Shown: positions 1,979 through 13,232 of the stretch, in pieces
Layout of the letters: every line of letters begins with the position of its first letter
How positions within the stretch are numbered: the stretch's first letter is position 1
NCBI GenBank assembly: GCA_944322585.1
Contig: CALUPB010000003.1
Location: forward strand, 62,001-126,000
Length of the DNA: 64,000 nt
DNA from: an uncultured Bacteroidales bacterium
GTDB lineage: Bacteria > Bacteroidota > Bacteroidia > Bacteroidales > UBA932
Reading direction: 5' to 3'
Translations under genes and position numbers: made by a program
Notes under the pieces: model-generated
The model's input: the letters and a program-made list of their open reading frames with translations, nothing else
What the model was told of the DNA's origin: nothing
Database searches by the model: none

Positions 1979-2188
1979 CTTTAATTTTAATGATTATCCA
2001 AAAGAATACCCTTTCTATAAGATAAGTCTGACCGGCCAGTGAAAACTTACGGGAACGACATGGTATCATGTCCTGAAAACAAACGGAGCGGCAGTCCTGC
2101 CAACCGGCCATATCCGGAACGGATACCGGTCTTTGACGGGCATCTGAATCATTACTTCAGACCAAGAGACGGAAAATCTGTTCGGTGC

Positions 2189-2422
2189 ACACCTGGAATT
2201 GGATAATACGCATAATCACATATGAAACAAGTAGTTACATGATTTTGTGTCTTCCAGGTGTAATAGTTTCCGGCACACCTGGAAGAGAGAATCGCTCTCC
2301 GGTGGCAGCCAACGGCACATCGGCAATTCCAGGTGTGCTCAAAGATGTTACACCTGGAATTTAGAATAGAACGTAATTTTCTCTAATTCAAAGAATTACG
2401 CAGCAGATCCATTTCCAGGTGT
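2189..2422. repeat. REP/BIME-like palindromic mosaic, copy 1
   Basis: Six copies of a 10-base half-site alternate in orientation: ACACCTGGAA at 2189-2198, 2275-2284 and 2350-2359; TTCCAGGTGT at 2252-2261, 2327-2336 and 2413-2422. This gives units of 73, 13, 62, 13 and 73 bp. The two 33-bp segments at 2252-2284 and 2327-2359 are perfect 10-bp stems with 13-base loops. Copies with the same spacing at 7011-7243 and 8442-8674 flank the RAYT gene. The surrounding stretch 1723-2591 has no credible gene. Apart from this mosaic it holds only copper-locus box variants. Confidence 0.85.
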
Positions 2423-2507
2423 GCTACTGTTCACACAGTATGACAGTAAACATAAGCATTCATACTTCATGGCCTGGAAAACATGACAATGGGAGTCAGG
2501 GATAACT

Positions 2508-2561
2508 TTGCGGATAAGCATTTTAATTTTTGTCATTATAAATTTTAATGATTATCCGCAA
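2508..2561. promoter_or_regulatory. Inverted pair of copper-locus boxes
   Basis: TTGCGGATAAGCATT (2508-2522, 14 of 15 matches) faces AATGATTATCCGCAA (2547-2561, exact inverse of TTGCGGATAATCATT), separated by 24 AT-rich bases. A TAACTTTG (-7-like) ends at 2510. This looks like a two-site operator, or the remnant of the upstream region of a lost gene copy. Confidence 0.4.
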
Positions 2562-6846: not shown

Positions 6847-6965
6847 AGGTCGACCCCAAAGGATGCTTTCTGCGTTACGCTTGCTTCGAAAATCCTCATG
6901 TACACCAATATACTGCGGTTTTCTCATCTTCGCAAGCCTTGAAATTCCTCCTTTGGGATCGACCT
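6847..6965. repeat. Inverted-repeat structured element, copy 1
   Basis: The 16-base arms AGGTCGACCCCAAAGG (6847-6862) and CCTTTGGGATCGACCT (6950-6965) pair at 15 of 16 positions around a core containing TTTCTGCGTTACGCTTG and TCTTCGCAAGCCTTGAAA. The core is shared almost exactly with 24120-24240, but the arm sequences differ with pairing preserved. It lies about 50 bases after the stop codon of copA. It may act as a terminator, an RNA structure or a miniature mobile element. Confidence 0.7.
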
Positions 6966-7010: not shown

Positions 7011-7243
7011 ACACCTGGAATTGATATTTTTGCTAAGTCTATAACAAACAATCGATTAAAACAATCTCACAATTCCAGGTGTAACGTTTGCCGACACACC
7101 TGGAAGAACGGATCGGGCTCAGACAGCTGCCGGTGGCACATCTGTCACTCCAGGTGTATCACTATATGTGACACCTGGAACAAGCTTTTGTCGATAAAAC
7201 ATTGTAAATAAACAACTTATACAAATTATCCAATTCCTGGTGT
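7011..7243. repeat. REP/BIME-like palindromic mosaic, copy 2
   Basis: Half-sites ACACCTGGAA at 7011-7020, 7096-7105 and 7171-7180 alternate with TTCCAGGTGT (or one-base variants) at 7073-7082, 7148-7157 and 7234-7243. The units are 72, 13, 62, 13 and 73 bp. The central 62-bp unit contains inner inverted repeats (GACAG/CTGTC and TGCC/GGCA). A tail similar to 8857-8911 follows at 7296-7350. The copy lies downstream of the RAYT gene. Confidence 0.9.
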
Positions 7244-7423
7244 GTCGTATAGCAAACAGAGCCAATACTCTCATAGACAGAAAACCAAGAGCCATCTGCT
7301 GAAGAATCCGAAGAGATGAACGACAGCTTAAACGGAGCCGGAAACAGAATGCGGACAATAGGGAACCTATCAGAACCACCATTAGCCATCAGTAATCACT
7401 ATATGGAACCTCTCCATTATATC

Positions 7424-8299
7424 TCAATCAGGCAACAATCCTAAAATACGTCGGACTATTGCTTCATCCGTCCCGTACTTGACAATGAGTTCCTCCATCA
7501 GTTCTCTTTTCTGTGATTCTTCCAGTTCAAGGACATTACCTACACCGTATTTGAGTGCAGATATTCTCCCTGCTATTTTCAATGCGGAAATGTCACAGCA
7601 CAGATTTTCCTCCTCCATGTCAAGTCTGACTACACTTCTGCCTGAACTGTCACGTTCGCGTCTCTGTATAAAATAATTGAAACTTCTTTCCGTCCTGAAG
7701 ATACTCTCCACAATTGATGTATCAATAAAGGAACTGAATGTCAGCATGCCTTCAGAATTTATAATCCATGCTTCCGGAATTTCATCCTTGGTATGTAGAA
7801 TAGCTCTTTTCTCCCATGGATGCAATAAGTTCACATCTACAGTCTGACCTTTATATGAAAAATAATACGGTGATGTATGACCCTCTTCTGTAAAATGCAC
7901 TTTAATCGAACTCCACGGATAATAATACGGATTATTAGTCTCGGAATGGCCGACAGGATTCCTGTAAACATAACTTATGACTGATTTCATATAATCATTT
8001 CCCGCACATCTTATTATGCTATGCGGCCATCTTCGGAAAACCTTGGTAACACCGTACCTTGAAGCCATCCACATGCTGTACGTCTTTTTGAATTTTACAA
8101 TGGACATCTCGACCTTATCCTCATCTCCGATTGCTATAAAGTGTACATGATTCGACATAAGACACATTGCAGCAATACGGCAATTCCCGTTAAAAGCCAG
8201 AGCCGCCCGGTTAATTCCTTGAATAAAATCCTTACGGTCCCGAAAAAGAAGTCTGTCTGAAAACCCTTTGGTGCAGACATGAAACATTTGATTCTCCAT
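7424..8299 (-). CDS. REP-associated tyrosine transposase (RAYT, Y1/HUH family)
   Basis: A 291-residue protein of the IS200-like Y1 transposase fold used by RAYTs. It has the HUH metal motif in SNHVHF (H51, H53). The catalytic tyrosine is expected in the SYVYRNPVGH segment (probably Y110), followed by YYYPWSS. The C-terminal ~100 residues form an extra, probably helical domain (RISALKYGVGNVLEL...EAIVRRILGLL). The ATG at 8299 follows a GAGGAGG site. RAYTs nick single-stranded DNA and act on REP-type palindromes; here the gene lies between two copies of such a mosaic. It is full length with all motifs present, so probably active. Its base composition is AT-richer than the neighbouring PUL. Confidence 0.9.
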   Translation of the reverse strand: MENQMFHVCTKGFSDRLLFRDRKDFIQGINRAALAFNGNCRIAAMCLMSNHVHFIAIGDEDKVEMSIVKFKKTYSMWMASRYGVTKVFRRWPHSIIRCAGNDYMKSVISYVYRNPVGHSETNNPYYYPWSSIKVHFTEEGHTSPYYFSYKGQTVDVNLLHPWEKRAILHTKDEIPEAWIINSEGMLTFSSFIDTSIVESIFRTERSFNYFIQRRERDSSGRSVVRLDMEEENLCCDISALKIAGRISALKYGVGNVLELEESQKRELMEELIVKYGTDEAIVRRILGLLPD

Positions 8300-8402
8300 C
8301 CTCTAATCCTCCTCATTAAATTGACAGATTTGCCATTGAAAACAGTCAGCTCATTATTATGACATTTCAGGTCAAGTTTTAACAGTCTTCAAATGACAGT
8401 TA

Positions 8403-8432
8403 CAAAGCTAAAAAAGATTATCCGTTTTCAAA
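8403..8432 (-). promoter_or_regulatory. Promoter of the RAYT gene
   Basis: Read on the minus strand: TTTG (8432-8429), an 18-base spacer, then TAGCTTTG (8410-8403). This fits the Bacteroidetes TTTG/TAnnTTTG promoter. It lies just outside the mosaic copy at 8442-8674 and gives a leader of roughly 95 bases. Confidence 0.6.
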
Positions 8433-8441
8433 AATGATGTT

Positions 8442-8674
8442 ACACCTGGAATTAAAATTTCTATCAAATTAATGATAAACAATTAATTAAAACAATTAGC
8501 CAATTCCAGGTGTAACGACTGTCGACACACCTAGAAGAATGGAACGGGCTCAGACAGCTGCCTATGGCACATCTGTCATTCCAGGTGTGTCAGGACATGT
8601 GACACCTGGAACAAACATAAATCCGCAAAAACGTATGAATAAACGATTTACATCGAAATATCTATTCCAGGTGT
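8442..8674. repeat. REP/BIME-like palindromic mosaic, copy 3
   Basis: Half-sites at 8442-8451, 8504-8513, 8527-8536 (one change, ACACCTAGAA), 8579-8588, 8602-8611 and 8665-8674 alternate in orientation with spacings 72, 13, 62, 13 and 73 bp, exactly as in copy 2. It is in direct orientation relative to copy 2 and has a related tail at 8857-8911. The RAYT gene lies between them. The remainder of 8675-9158 has no credible gene. Confidence 0.9.
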
Positions 8675-9019
8675 GCAATTGCCGGATTTTCTGTCGGAAG
8701 AATCGGACCGGATACAGGCTCACAATAGACAGCAGGCAATAAACAGCATATAGCAGCATACACATGGCTCGAAAAAATCCTGACGAAAGAAAGTAATAAG
8801 GAGCGACGGAACCTTATGGGCTCATATACGAGGAAGGATATAGCCTACAACTGAACCTGCTGAAGACTCCGAGGAGATGAATGACAACATAAAGGAAATC
8901 GGAACAGATTACAGTATAGTCCACTCACAGACTGAGCATATGAAAGTTATGACCAGAAACGAATTGAGAGTCACAGGAGAGCCGCTGAACAATATCATAA
9001 GTGATAAGGAACAGGGCAA

Positions 9020-9170
9020 GGGGGGGGGATATGAGCCACAAACATGAGTGAATGACAGTAACGAACGGGACTGGGTAACAGTCATGAATGAGACTGGGGC
9101 ACAGTAACGAACGGAACCGGGCATAAACGAAACTGACACGAACAGAACCGGATAACGGTCATGAATGAGA
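9020..9170. repeat. G9 tract and short degenerate repeats
   Basis: Nine G at 9020-9028 are followed by imperfect repeats of AGTAACGAACGG and CAGTCATGAATGAGA running into the 3' end of the HTCS gene (stop at 9159). No gene is apparent, though a 35-codon frame crosses the G tract. Confidence 0.4.
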
Positions 9171-12100
9171 GTGTCCGTAGTCGGACGGGGAGACACCGAA
9201 CTTGTCCTTGAAACATTTGGCGAACCAGGACGCAGTCGTGAAGCCCACCTTGTACATCACCTCGGTGACGGAAAGCTTGCCCTGGGACAGATAAATGGCA
9301 GCCTTGCGGAGACGGGTATCACGGATAAACTCCACGATACTCATTCCCGTAAGCTGCTTTATCTTACGGTATATCTGCTTGCTGCTATACCGGCTCTCAC
9401 CGCACAGGACAGACGCCGAGAAATCAGGATCTTCAAGATGCCGGGAAACAATGTCCACGACTTCCTGCAGAAGTTTCTCGTCAAACGACTTCTCTTCCTC
9501 CACGGCTCCGGGTTCCAGCATCTGCTGCTGCCTCATCCTCGCCAGATAATGCTCATGCTTGATAAGCAGCTGTATGATCCGGTTATTCAGATAATTGAGA
9601 CTGAACGGTTTGGAAATGAACGCATCGGCATACTCGAATGACTTCATCTCCGTCTGCTCGTCATTCTTACCCGTCAGGACAATTATCGGGAGGAATGCGG
9701 TCTTCAATGAATTGCGTATGGCCCTGCTCATGGTGAGACCGTCCATTCCACCCGGCATGGCTATATCCGTTATCACCAGATCTATCTTCTCCCCGGCGAG
9801 CAGATCAAGTCCGGCCTGCCCCTCGTCAGCTACAAGAAAGACATAATCCTTGCCAAGGGATGCAGTAATGAAATCCCTTATATCATAATTGTCCTCCACC
9901 AGAAGGATGACAGGCTTGCGCTGATGCTGCCATACATTGGAAAGACTGTGAAGGGAATATTCCTCGCGGCCGGCAGACTTGAGGACGAAAGAATCGGCCT
10001 TCATCGTAGACAGACGCACCGTGAATGCCGTCCCCTTACCGGGTTCTGAAGACACGGTTATCCTGCCCTTGTGCTGTTCCACTATCTCCTTGACAAGAGC
10101 CAGCCCTATCCCGGACCCGCCAGGGCTGTTCTTCCTGCTGGAAGCGGTCCTGTAATAACGGTTGAATACAAGAGGCTGCTCCTCAGGTGCTATTCCGCAC
10201 CCTGTATCCTCCACCCTGATGTCGGCATACAGCATTTCAGGAGTTTCTTCCCCGACCGTCACACTTACGAGTACACTGCCGCCTGACGGAGTGAAATTGA
10301 GTGCATTGGACAGCAGATTCTGGATGACAGATTCCATTTTCAGCCTGTCCACCATGAAAATATAGCCTATATCGTCCGAAACGAATCTCGAACTTATCTC
10401 TTTCCGGGCGAAAGCATCGGCATACCGGTCATACACGGACTTTACAAGTTCCTGAATAGATGTCGCTGCAGGAATAAACAGGGATGTCCCTCCATTCTCG
10501 TTGAACTGCACCATCTGATCAAGAAGCAGATGTATCTTTTCCGCATTCTTCTGAACAGTATTCAGCTCCCTTGTGCGGAGCGAATCGGCTTCAGACGCAA
10601 TCATCCTTCCGACAAAACCGAGAATAATGCTCAACGGACTCTTGAACTCATGCGAGACATTCGCAAGGAATTCCGTCTTCATGTCAGCCATTTTCAGTGC
10701 CCTGTCCCTTTCCGCATGTTCCATCTGCAACTGATGTTTCATCCTTATATAATAAATGACCGCGATGCACATCCCGACAATCAGCAGGAAATAGACAATA
10801 TAGGCAAACGGAGTCGCATACCACACCGTACGCACCCTCACAGGAAACGAAGTGACAATGCCCGGACAAGAGCCGTCAGCGGGAGCCACCGCGACCTCAA
10901 AGACATATCGGCCTCCCGGGACATTCAGGAACACGGCCCTGTTGTCCGAAGTCAGCTGCCATGTGTCGTCAAAACCGGTCAACCGGTACATAAACCTGTT
11001 CCTGCTGTCTGAAAAACTGAAATCGGAATAGACTATGGTAAAAGAATTCTGATCCGATTTCAGGTCTATTCCGGACATCATGGCCATGTTCTTTCCGAGA
11101 ATGAGGTTACCGTCATATTCCCGGCCTACCCTGACCAGGGCATTGTCAAGAAAAAGCCCTGTCACCGAAACCCGTCCCCGACGCTCTACACAAGGAAGAG
11201 ATTCCATATCAAGCCTGTAATAACCGTCCTTGCTCCCGAGAAAGACTGTACCGTCCTCCGCTGCAAGCCCGCATAGTACCGGATTGTCCGAAAACATGGA
11301 ATACATCCATGCATCTTCAGAAGAATCATATACGTAGACATCCCTGTCGGAAACAACCAGCAGCCTGTCACCTGCCGGAGCGACAGTGCCGGCAGACAAG
11401 CGGAATCCGGCCGCCTGCACCGCCCTGCCATCCTCCGAAAGCCGGAAAAGTCCGCCGCTCGTACCTGCCCATATGCAATCCTTACCCGCCACGAGCGTAC
11501 TGGCATACAGGCCTGAAGGCAACCCGACATAGGTGACATCGCCCGATGTCAGATCGATCATATCCACCATTCCGTTGGAAAGCACCGCCGCGAAGTTTCC
11601 CGTAACTGCAATATCCATCACCGCATTGCCGGCTATCGGAGGATCCGACTCAAGGTCATACTGTCTGTCTGCAGGATACGGAGTACCATACGAAGACAGC
11701 AGGGACTCCATATCCTCTATCATCAGCAATCCGTCATACGTACCGAGCCACAGACGGCCGAGACTGTCCGTCGCGACACTGTACATCCATGTAGAAAGAT
11801 ATGTTCCTGACGGGTCGGTAATATCATAGTGCCTGACCAGCCCGGTCGCGTAGTCAAGTCTGTCCAACCCTCCGTCCGAGACGATAAGCAGACCCGTGCC
11901 GTCATCGGACAGATCCCTTACCTTGTTGTGGGACAGCCTCATTCCAGGCTTTCCGGTATCCGACCGGTACCACCTGGCATATCTCCCGTCAGCACTTTTC
12001 ATGACAAGGCCGCCCATTCCGCCCATCCACAGATTCCCCGCCGGATCAGTCTCCATCACCATGATATCCTGCCCCTCCCTGCTGCCTGTAAAGGAAGCCA

Positions 12101-13232
12101 ACGGACAGAATGTCACTCCGGGTGTAACGGACGTAAGCGCAACCCCGTAATCCGTGCAGATGAAGACCTCCCCTGTCATGGACCTGAAAATGGACCACAC
12201 CACGTTGTTCGGAAGAGAGGCACTGCTGCCTGCCTCATGGCTGAAACGGACGAATCCTGACCCTTCCTTTATGAACAGTCCGTTATCCGTGCCTATCCAT
12301 GTCTGCGACCCGCTGTAACGGAAAAAATATTTGACAGGAATATTGTCGAGGGCAGTGCCGGCAACAGAGGGGACTTCCATATCATAGACGACAATCCCCT
12401 GCTCCGTGCCCAGCCACAGAAGCGAAGGGTCATCCGGAGATTCCGCTATGTCAAGCACCAGTTTCCTGTCCGTCCCCAATCCGTAACGAACAAATCCGTC
12501 CGCAGGGCTGTAACGGTAGAAACAGTCATATGCGCCGAAATATACATAGTCCCCTATCTTCCTGGCACAGGCGATATGGTCCGAGAAGGGCGACTGGCCT
12601 GCATCCCGGAGCGGTTCCATGTCAGAGACGATTCCTTCCGAAATGTCGAAACACATAAGCCCTTCCACCGTTCCTATCCACAGCCTGCCCCCATCCGAAA
12701 GCAGGGTCTTGACCTGGCGGTATCCGCACGCCTGGAGGGAAGCAAAACTGTCCGATCCGAAATCATATACGGACACCCCGACATCCGTACCCACCACCAT
12801 CTTTCCATAATCCGGGAAATACAGCAGCGCACTTACATGGTTGTTGCACAATGAGCGGGAATCTCCCGGGATAAATGTATAGCTGTACACATCGTACCCG
12901 TCGTATTTAAGAAGTCCGGAATCCGTCCCGATCCAGAGGAACCGGCTTGTATCCTGTACGGCGGCATAGGCTGGTGAAGTGTACTCCTCCATTCCAGAAG
13001 GCACACGGAAACCGGAGGGCAGAGGACTATCCGGAACGACAGCGCGACCTGTCCGGGCCGAGTTCCGGAATATGCCCGAAATGACCGCCTCGGATCCGGA
13101 AGAGACAGCCGTCGGATTAGCGGCGACAGCGACCAGAGAGACCGTCCCGGCCATAAGACCGGCAATGGCTGCCAGACACAGCAATATACGACGGGCGATA
13201 GTATTTACCATACAATATGTATTCTTGTCCAC
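9159..13232 (-). CDS. Hybrid two-component system regulator (HTCS) of the galactan PUL
   Basis: A 1357-residue single-chain sensor and transcription factor. An N-terminal signal/anchor (residues ~10-37) is followed by a long periplasmic region of two-component propeller repeats (ILWIGTxxGL-type motifs) and a Y_Y_Y domain (about 700-780). After one membrane segment (AYIVYFLLIVGMCIAVIYYI) come a histidine kinase with H861 in the VSHEFKSPLS box, an ATPase domain (DTGCGIAPEE, GGSGIGLALVKEI), a receiver domain with D1156, and a C-terminal AraC helix-turn-helix. It is divergent from the SusC gene at 13547. In B. thetaiotaomicron an HTCS sits beside the equivalent galactan PUL. The likely ligand is a galactooligosaccharide in the periplasm. 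Confidence 0.93.
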   Translation of the reverse strand: MDKNTYCMVNTIARRILLCLAAIAGLMAGTVSLVAVAANPTAVSSGSEAVISGIFRNSARTGRAVVPDSPLPSGFRVPSGMEEYTSPAYAAVQDTSRFLWIGTDSGLLKYDGYDVYSYTFIPGDSRSLCNNHVSALLYFPDYGKMVVGTDVGVSVYDFGSDSFASLQACGYRQVKTLLSDGGRLWIGTVEGLMCFDISEGIVSDMEPLRDAGQSPFSDHIACARKIGDYVYFGAYDCFYRYSPADGFVRYGLGTDRKLVLDIAESPDDPSLLWLGTEQGIVVYDMEVPSVAGTALDNIPVKYFFRYSGSQTWIGTDNGLFIKEGSGFVRFSHEAGSSASLPNNVVWSIFRSMTGEVFICTDYGVALTSVTPGVTFCPLASFTGSREGQDIMVMETDPAGNLWMGGMGGLVMKSADGRYARWYRSDTGKPGMRLSHNKVRDLSDDGTGLLIVSDGGLDRLDYATGLVRHYDITDPSGTYLSTWMYSVATDSLGRLWLGTYDGLLMIEDMESLLSSYGTPYPADRQYDLESDPPIAGNAVMDIAVTGNFAAVLSNGMVDMIDLTSGDVTYVGLPSGLYASTLVAGKDCIWAGTSGGLFRLSEDGRAVQAAGFRLSAGTVAPAGDRLLVVSDRDVYVYDSSEDAWMYSMFSDNPVLCGLAAEDGTVFLGSKDGYYRLDMESLPCVERRGRVSVTGLFLDNALVRVGREYDGNLILGKNMAMMSGIDLKSDQNSFTIVYSDFSFSDSRNRFMYRLTGFDDTWQLTSDNRAVFLNVPGGRYVFEVAVAPADGSCPGIVTSFPVRVRTVWYATPFAYIVYFLLIVGMCIAVIYYIRMKHQLQMEHAERDRALKMADMKTEFLANVSHEFKSPLSIILGFVGRMIASEADSLRTRELNTVQKNAEKIHLLLDQMVQFNENGGTSLFIPAATSIQELVKSVYDRYADAFARKEISSRFVSDDIGYIFMVDRLKMESVIQNLLSNALNFTPSGGSVLVSVTVGEETPEMLYADIRVEDTGCGIAPEEQPLVFNRYYRTASSRKNSPGGSGIGLALVKEIVEQHKGRITVSSEPGKGTAFTVRLSTMKADSFVLKSAGREEYSLHSLSNVWQHQRKPVILLVEDNYDIRDFITASLGKDYVFLVADEGQAGLDLLAGEKIDLVITDIAMPGGMDGLTMSRAIRNSLKTAFLPIIVLTGKNDEQTEMKSFEYADAFISKPFSLNYLNNRIIQLLIKHEHYLARMRQQQMLEPGAVEEEKSFDEKLLQEVVDIVSRHLEDPDFSASVLCGESRYSSKQIYRKIKQLTGMSIVEFIRDTRLRKAAIYLSQGKLSVTEVMYKVGFTTASWFAKCFKDKFGVSPSDYGHSHS

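Follow-up and report, generated by a model that had tools for sequence, protein, structure and literature searches.

The DNA analysed here, a stretch of 64,000 nucleotides from a gut bacterium referred to throughout as the window, contains what is best explained as a divergent Bacteroidales REPtron, that is, a single-copy gene for a RAYT-type HUH nuclease together with its cognate palindromic repeats, and a probability of roughly 0.68 is assigned to this reading. It is built on the gene, the repeats flanking it, a private half-site, the layout conserved at the orthologue and a 51-53 bp register that recurs next to numerous RAYTs of the genus. What is chiefly new concerns the genus as a whole: in the host genus, presumably Cryptobacteroides, RAYTs occur frequently, and many of them have a private repeat in a constant register. 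The reason for which domesticated Y1 transposases are kept, and their choice of palindromes, is an open question that has been studied mainly in proteobacteria. The features of the window are as follows.

1989..2522, no strand assigned: MITE-like element of 534 bp with terminal inverted repeats AATGATTATCC.../...GCGGATAAGCATT
2189..2422, + strand: third mosaic, 234 bp, six half-sites with spacing 63/23/52/23/63, inside the MITE-like element
7011..7243, + strand: mosaic A, downstream of the RAYT gene; half-sites at 7011+, 7073-, 7096+, 7148-, 7171+ and 7234-
7296..7350, + strand: tail 1, related to 8857-8911
7424..8299, - strand: gene for the RAYT-type HUH/Y1 protein, 291 aa, with H51-V-H53, Y110 and a helical C-terminal domain (residues ~155-291)
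8403-8432, - strand: promoter-like TTTG-N18-TAGCTTTG preceding the RAYT gene and separated from mosaic B by nine bases
8442..8674, + strand: mosaic B, upstream of the RAYT gene; half-sites at 8442+, 8504-, 8527+, 8579-, 8602+ and 8665-
8857..8911, + strand: tail 2, related to 7296-7350 and lying ~130 bases further from its mosaic

The RAYT gene is enclosed by two direct 233-bp mosaics, each made of six alternating ACACCTGGAA/TTCCAGGTGT half-sites in the order + - + - + -. All twelve half-sites of this arrangement, which had been noticed in the preliminary description, were recovered as 10-mers at up to one mismatch, with a start-to-start spacing of 62/23/52/23/63 that is identical in mosaics A and B. 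The direct repeat (7011-7219 / 8442-8650) is 78% alike, and the window holds 23 half-sites at up to one mismatch compared to 4.3 +/- 2.1 in shuffles, none of 100 shuffles reaching 23. Single-strand folding of the mosaics was much better than that of shuffles (z -6.35 and -5.94). Seven half-sites of the mosaics are one-base deviants and, by eye, none of them has a compensating change in its partner; consequently, a paired-hairpin constraint is not favoured. Likewise by eye, no canonical REP foot GT[AG]G was seen at the half-site hairpins of mosaics A and B. The related tail that had been described after each mosaic is 81% alike over 48 bases (7296-7343 / 8857-8904), but its distance is not the same, since 53 bp separate it from the end of the first mosaic but 183 bp from that of the second, which gives copy 2 about 130 extra bases. 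Two further repeats were observed in the vicinity: an inverted repeat of 17 bases (AGGTCGACCCCAAAGGA) at 6847-6965, whose arms are separated by 85 bases and which lies in the interval from a P-type-ATPase-like gene to mosaic A, and degenerate short tandem repeats of the ACGAACGGGACTGGGTAACAGT.. type with a spacing of ~23 bases (9038-9173), which adjoin the 3' end of a 1357-codon ORF on the minus strand (9159-13232) that by eye has the look of a hybrid two-component regulator.

The reading frame of the RAYT gene is intact over 291 aa. H51, H53 and Y110, the residues by which it had been recognised as a Y1/HUH gene, are invariant among 16 and among 69 aligned sequences, and N114 is likewise invariant in the 69 rows of alignment A2; the tyrosine is followed by NP, and Y110 is the presumed catalytic residue. 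The window protein falls below the curated cut-offs of both Pfam Y1_Tnp (21.8 bits vs 23) and NCBIfam REP_Tyr_transpos (31 bits vs 80) and is at best a divergent member of the family. All 69 members of A2 matched the NCBIfam RAYT model (E <= 0.01), and an AlphaFold2 model made from this alignment (mean pLDDT 86.8) had as its top Foldseek match in the PDB 4er8, a RAYT with a REP hairpin (E 2.5e-4, probability 1.00), which upholds the RAYT identity claimed earlier. Its single-copy status was borne out as well, the genome having one copy of this RAYT and two other Y1 genes that are ~30% alike; an IS200/IS605 insertion sequence was considered and rejected, as near-identical multiple copies of the transposase are not present. 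The ~135 C-terminal residues are mostly helical and appear HTH-like from their sequence by eye (..QIARVTGL..). HTH models gave scattered weak matches, each to at most 5 of 40 members and amid many non-HTH models. Since the C-terminal domain alone had no match among PDB folds and nothing convincing in a profile search, the C-terminal HTH is considered putative. Searching solved structures by sequence returned only chance matches or weak IS200-type matches (E ~0.5), nothing matched in Rfam at E <= 1 or among plasmid and phage records, and a viral collection yielded a single distant match. In a contig collection, no match was obtained with the single window protein as query, and matches were obtained with the alignment.

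The gene had also been credited with its own promoter, and the element at 8403-8432 agrees with this, as we take TTTG-N18-TAGCTTTG to resemble the Bacteroidetes promoter consensus; a similar promoter-like element precedes the orthologue locus L196. The MITE-end-like CGGATAA in the spacer of the promoter was set aside as not general (12 of 182 upstream regions).

In the own genome (2.87 Mb, 33 contigs), exact copies of the half-site number 25 on each strand, compared to 1 and 3 for a reversed control pattern. The pair TTCCAGGTGT-N13-ACACCTGGAA at up to one mismatch has 15 sites (12 exact, 3 with one mismatch), all of them mosaic sites; at up to two mismatches there are 24, the 9 additional ones, all with two mismatches, coming from the family of the second RAYT. 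Beyond the pair at the RAYT, full six-half-site mosaics with the spacing of the window were found at five loci (L056, L057, L058a, L059 and L061). Reduced mosaics were found at four others, L060 keeping four half-sites and L062, L065 and L066 keeping two. The third mosaic within the window had gone unmentioned in the preliminary description. According to a comparison by eye, 86 or 161 bp were lost from the reduced mosaics with a junction at same-orientation half-sites, that is, at direct half-sites of 10-12 bases, L066 having a second junction inside a linker; these junctions fit equally with slippage and with cutting and rejoining at repeats.

A MITE-like sequence is common to seven of the nine dispersed mosaic loci (L056, L057, L058a, L059, L060, L062 and L065), L066 having only short stretches of extra sharing and L061 none. 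Consequently, the number of mosaics is no measure of RAYT activity, and in this genome it is mainly the copy number of a MITE. This element measures 533-534 bp, and both of its inverted ends were recognised in three loci, L057 and L058a, where exact 8-bp target duplications border it (ATTTGTAA, TTAATTTT), and L060, where no matching duplication was found; the window element is bordered by TTAATTTT direct repeats at 1981-1988 and 2523-2530. L056, L059, L062 and L065 share parts of it, and its left end has 18 matches in the genome (E < 0.01), several at places with no mosaic. All this makes it somewhat short of an even chance that the mosaic family travels with a MITE mobilised by a DDE-type transposase, the RAYT contributing nothing to its spread. 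This explanation does account for the spread here but not for the link between RAYT and repeat: the MITE ends are absent from both RAYT mosaics and from L061, two mosaics also lie at the orthologue of another species, and no evident carrier was found for the fetched dispersed units of another genome (G065) or of the second RAYT. Beside the first MITE-like element (1989-2522), a second one was observed at 2547-2715, with related inverted ends AATGATTATCC.../...GGATAA(G/T)CATT.

The closest orthologue, 58% identical, is found in another species (G029; L077, also L196). It lies between two direct mosaics that are 90% alike, whose half-site ACACCTGCAG/TTCCAGGTGT is shifted with the 13-base gap kept. 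By eye, with two related 10-mers, the first flank of a relative that is 36% identical (L079) shows half-sites in the order - + - + at 23/52/23. Searched in the 150 congeners at up to one mismatch, TTCCAGGTGT-N13-ACACCTGGAA had one site, in G044. With 15 sites in the own genome and one in 150 congeners, the mosaics are thus neither equally abundant elsewhere nor absent from the rest of this genome. The proposal of an own REP family stands as regards this near-exclusive occurrence, but not as regards the GT[AG]G foot. At up to two mismatches, 1-13 sites were found in nine other genomes and none in 141, compared to 1 in each of three genomes for the reversed control. The 13 sites belong to G053, seven of them being of the orthologue's type by eye, and G068 has 2 sites of this type; no close orthologue of the RAYT was detected in either draft assembly. 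These sites are either evidence against a strict RAYT dependence or the trace of a loss.

Further palindromes were observed in these genomes, namely six sites of the TGCCAGGTGG-N13-ACACCTGGAA type in G053 (contigs C15, C16, C18 and C47) and, flanking a RAYT of G044 (L078), repeats with a palindromic core near TGAATATTCA, a spacing of ~63 bp and a half-site unlike the others. A search for empty sites by means of the neighbouring P-type ATPase found it in no other genome at E <= 1e-150, a threshold too strict for this outcome to be informative. An order-wide profile search (E <= 1e-15) of 148 sampled genomes had matches in two, each belonging to the own genus. Among the best 80 of 429 matches of a pattern search in another collection were loci titled Coprenecus, Merdivivens and Muribaculum and one titled Cryptobacteroides; thus the RAYT family is concentrated in its own genus without being confined to it.

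Other RAYTs have private repeats of their own. The palindrome of L105 has 10 sites in its genome, G065: 4 at the RAYT and 6 in other places, some of them paired at a distance of 51 bp. It was found in none of the 150 other genomes, and its reversed control gave no site. Among the fetched copies, homology mostly ends at ~85 bp, L343 and L344 sharing 156 bp. In the own genome, the second RAYT (C2:195; L075, G000:C2:1-2534) lies beside 73-bp arrays of CCAGGTCTG-N11-CAGACCTGG, of which one is immediately downstream, at the end of the contig, and another ~1.4 kb upstream. Its half-site AGACCTGGAA is one base off that of the window and has the same 13-base gap. At up to two mismatches, CCAGGTCTG-N11-CAGACCTGG has 61 sites in the own genome; of the other genomes, 16 have 1-7 sites and 134 have none. 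The reversed control matches once in each of 18 other genomes, so that a lone match outside the own genome is what chance would give. At up to three mismatches it has 76 sites and also matches the mosaics of the window, for which reason the count of 61 is used. The fetched arrays of this type share the array with no evident carrier, considering the two best alignments per pair. Such 73-bp arrays were observed at about a dozen places (L061, L065 and L348-L356 among them), several of them at the ends of contigs, the assembly having probably been interrupted by them; at L061 and L065 they adjoin mosaics of the window's family. For the third RAYT of the genome (L074, G000:C1:102323), no recognisable flanking palindrome array was found.

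Across the genus, 115 of 151 genomes have at least one RAYT (E <= 1e-10), and the largest number in a single genome is 12. The 152 RAYT loci were reduced to 125 distinct ones (<95% identity), of which 115 had at least 600 bp on both sides and 10 were dropped. For each locus, the inverted 10-mer (<=1 mismatch) most repeated across both flanks was taken, spacing being ignored in the choice. At least three inverted half-sites per flank were obtained in 54 of the 115 loci, compared to none of 115 dinucleotide shuffles and none of 20 control regions of the own genus, and a same-orientation pair at 51-53 bp was present in 42 of these 54, with a half-site that differs between RAYTs. An earlier count with 1500-bp flanks had given 43 of 65 RAYT loci against 1 of 20 controls. 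Considering all same-orientation distances up to 110 bp, 174 of 290 fall at 51-53 bp (69 at 51, 96 at 52 and 9 at 53) and 47 more at 102-105 bp; the shuffles gave 8 distances in all and the controls 3. In an enlarged set (184 distinct loci, 167 used), 74 of 167 qualified and, counted once per locus, 51, 52 and 53 bp occurred in 26, 34 and 5 loci respectively. The remaining 48 same-orientation distances tend towards multiples of a helical turn (R 0.49 at the best period, 10.5-10.75), a preference that is suggestive only, its p value going from 5e-4 to 0.03 once RAYTs are grouped by identity into 11 groups; opposite-orientation distances show little phase (R 0.17).

The register is not universal: 52 of the 115 loci have no clear flanking array, and 12, the window's among them, have another register, a label that clusters in the RAYT tree, where it changes 8 times compared to a shuffled mean of 11.6 (0 of 500 shuffles being as low). 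The spacing of opposite half-sites varies widely between families. In 33 doublets of the genus, self-complementarity outside the half-sites was 0.371 compared to 0.232 in shuffles, exceeding their own shuffles in 27. Half-sites track RAYT similarity weakly, from 5.15 matches out of 10 below 30% identity to 7.0 at 70% or more (n=4), a comparison that is noisy because the chosen 10-mer may fall on different parts of the repeat. The six-half-site repeat proposed as the building block of the family is indeed present at the window's RAYT, but it is a special case, the commoner unit of the genus being a doublet with a 51-52 bp register.

A constant distance between repeats could come from a palindromic unit that has merely duplicated in tandem and slipped and that has no function for the RAYT, and the junctions at direct half-sites in L060, L062, L065 and L066 (which has a further one in a linker) go in this direction. 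It is nevertheless very improbable given that the 51-53 bp register is found in 6 of 13 RAYT groups (single linkage, 40% identity) and that the spacers of neighbouring units are poorly conserved (per-locus median identity 0.53, lowest 0.34) despite their exact spacing; half-site identity is 0.91-0.98, half-sites having been chosen for likeness. Furthermore, 101 of the 122 flanks with at least two register units have exactly two.

Where both sides show the register (41 loci), the closest site downstream lies at a median of 22 bp past the stop codon and the closest one upstream at a median of 141 bp before the start codon. The mosaics might be an operator, bound at its half-sites by the RAYT protein in control of its own promoter, the other copies being by-products. 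The position of mosaic B next to the promoter-like element, the arrangement of half-sites as inverted pairs with a gap fixed within a family and, weakly, the HTH-like C-terminus agree with this proposal, which we judge quite unlikely since an operator is unneeded downstream of the gene, where the second direct copy lies, and since the dispersed doublets lie far away from that gene. When upstream and downstream repeats were compared over the 115 loci, 59 were direct, 11 inverted and 45 without match. The predominance of direct repeats among the 70 matched loci, together with neighbours of the L077 orthologue that differ by eye from those of the window, would suit a RAYT moving as one unit with its two direct repeats, in the manner of the left and right ends of IS200/IS605. 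This seems doubtful for an enzyme found once per genome with paralogues only ~30% alike.

The comparison with the literature covered the accessible parts of PMC6006769 (Quentin et al. 2018), PMC3733652 (2013) and PMC8266576. The divergent REPtron proposed here resembles REPtrons, or TnpA_REP (RAYT) systems with REP or REPIN doublets such as E. coli TnpA_REP (4er8), by its HUH-Y1 core, a single-copy gene between private palindromes, palindromes dispersed in the genome and inverted doublets. As in REPtrons, the flanking repeats of the single-copy gene recur in the genome, here dispersed mostly by the MITE, and the repeat family is specific to the RAYT with the exceptions of G053 and G068. The differences from these systems are the lack of a GT[AG]G foot, ~135 extra C-terminal residues, the 51-53 bp register, the six-half-site mosaics and 73-bp arrays as variants and a spacing of opposite half-sites that varies by family. 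Relative to a REPIN, in which two inverted palindromes form one larger hairpin, the mosaics of the window would be an enlarged form.

Within the TnpA_Y1 classification, as far as the accessible parts of PMC6006769 describe it, subclass 2.1 has C-terminal HTH-like domains and no REP-like sequences by automatic or manual searches, REP flanks are reported for five subclasses and atypical structures for subclass 2.6 of Bacteroidetes, and the table gives a core length of 111 residues for 2.1 and 135 for 2.6. From core length and tail, we infer that the present proteins are nearer to 2.1, with which they share a short core (~114 residues in the model) without the 2.6 insertion, a long helical C-terminal domain and the NHVH and Y..NP motifs; they differ from it by the REP-like repeats frequent in the present genus, none being reported for 2.1 in these parts of the paper. 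Subclass 2.6, described there with a median of 179 aa, a 21-aa insertion and WQ and YIH[QN]NP motifs, shares with them the phylum and a gene placed between atypical secondary structures with copies elsewhere, whereas the window protein has 291 aa, lacks the 21-aa insertion and carries RWP and YVYRNP motifs. In TIRtrons, according to the accessible parts of PMC3733652, a RAYT-like gene (TIRYT) lies between non-REP repeats, some of which form families; these are terminal inverted repeats, and a TIRYT was rejected here as the window copies are direct and those of the genus mostly so (59 direct, 11 inverted). In the literature searched, mostly without subscription papers and preprints, no title or abstract mentions a fixed register or RAYT doublets in Bacteroidales.

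As a mechanism for the divergent REPtron, the RAYT protein would recognise pairs of half-sites, probably by means of the helical C-terminal domain as the likely half-site reader, HTH-like as its residues are, and would use Tyr110 to nick one strand close to a repeat that is folded or exposed. Rejoining of the ends could then copy, move, homogenise or delete repeat units. The mosaics beside the gene would be its substrate and possibly an operator, mosaic B abutting the promoter-like element, and in the own genome the mosaic has in addition been taken up by the unrelated MITE-like element, to which most copies owe their spread. More tentatively, and on balance rather less than probable, the repeats could be read as duplex, the C-terminal HTH binding identical half-sites on one face of the helix, for which 51-53 bp would be five turns, and the HUH core nicking the strand exposed there; the RAYTs of the genus would bring along half-sites of their own and evolve them anew, so that the lineage as a whole would have radiated into orthogonal enzyme-repeat pairs.

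Taken together, the RAYT of the window is a divergent one that has a palindrome family to itself and belongs to a large radiation in the genus; binding, cleavage and a role of the register are proposed on the grounds given above. Some three quarters of the 151 species sampled have RAYTs, and the genus offers dozens of natural enzyme-repeat pairs for specificity swaps, and the register is a ruler that every mechanism must explain. The genus-wide occurrence of such pairs, often on the same 52-base ruler, suggests a lineage of enzymes and repeats of this kind.
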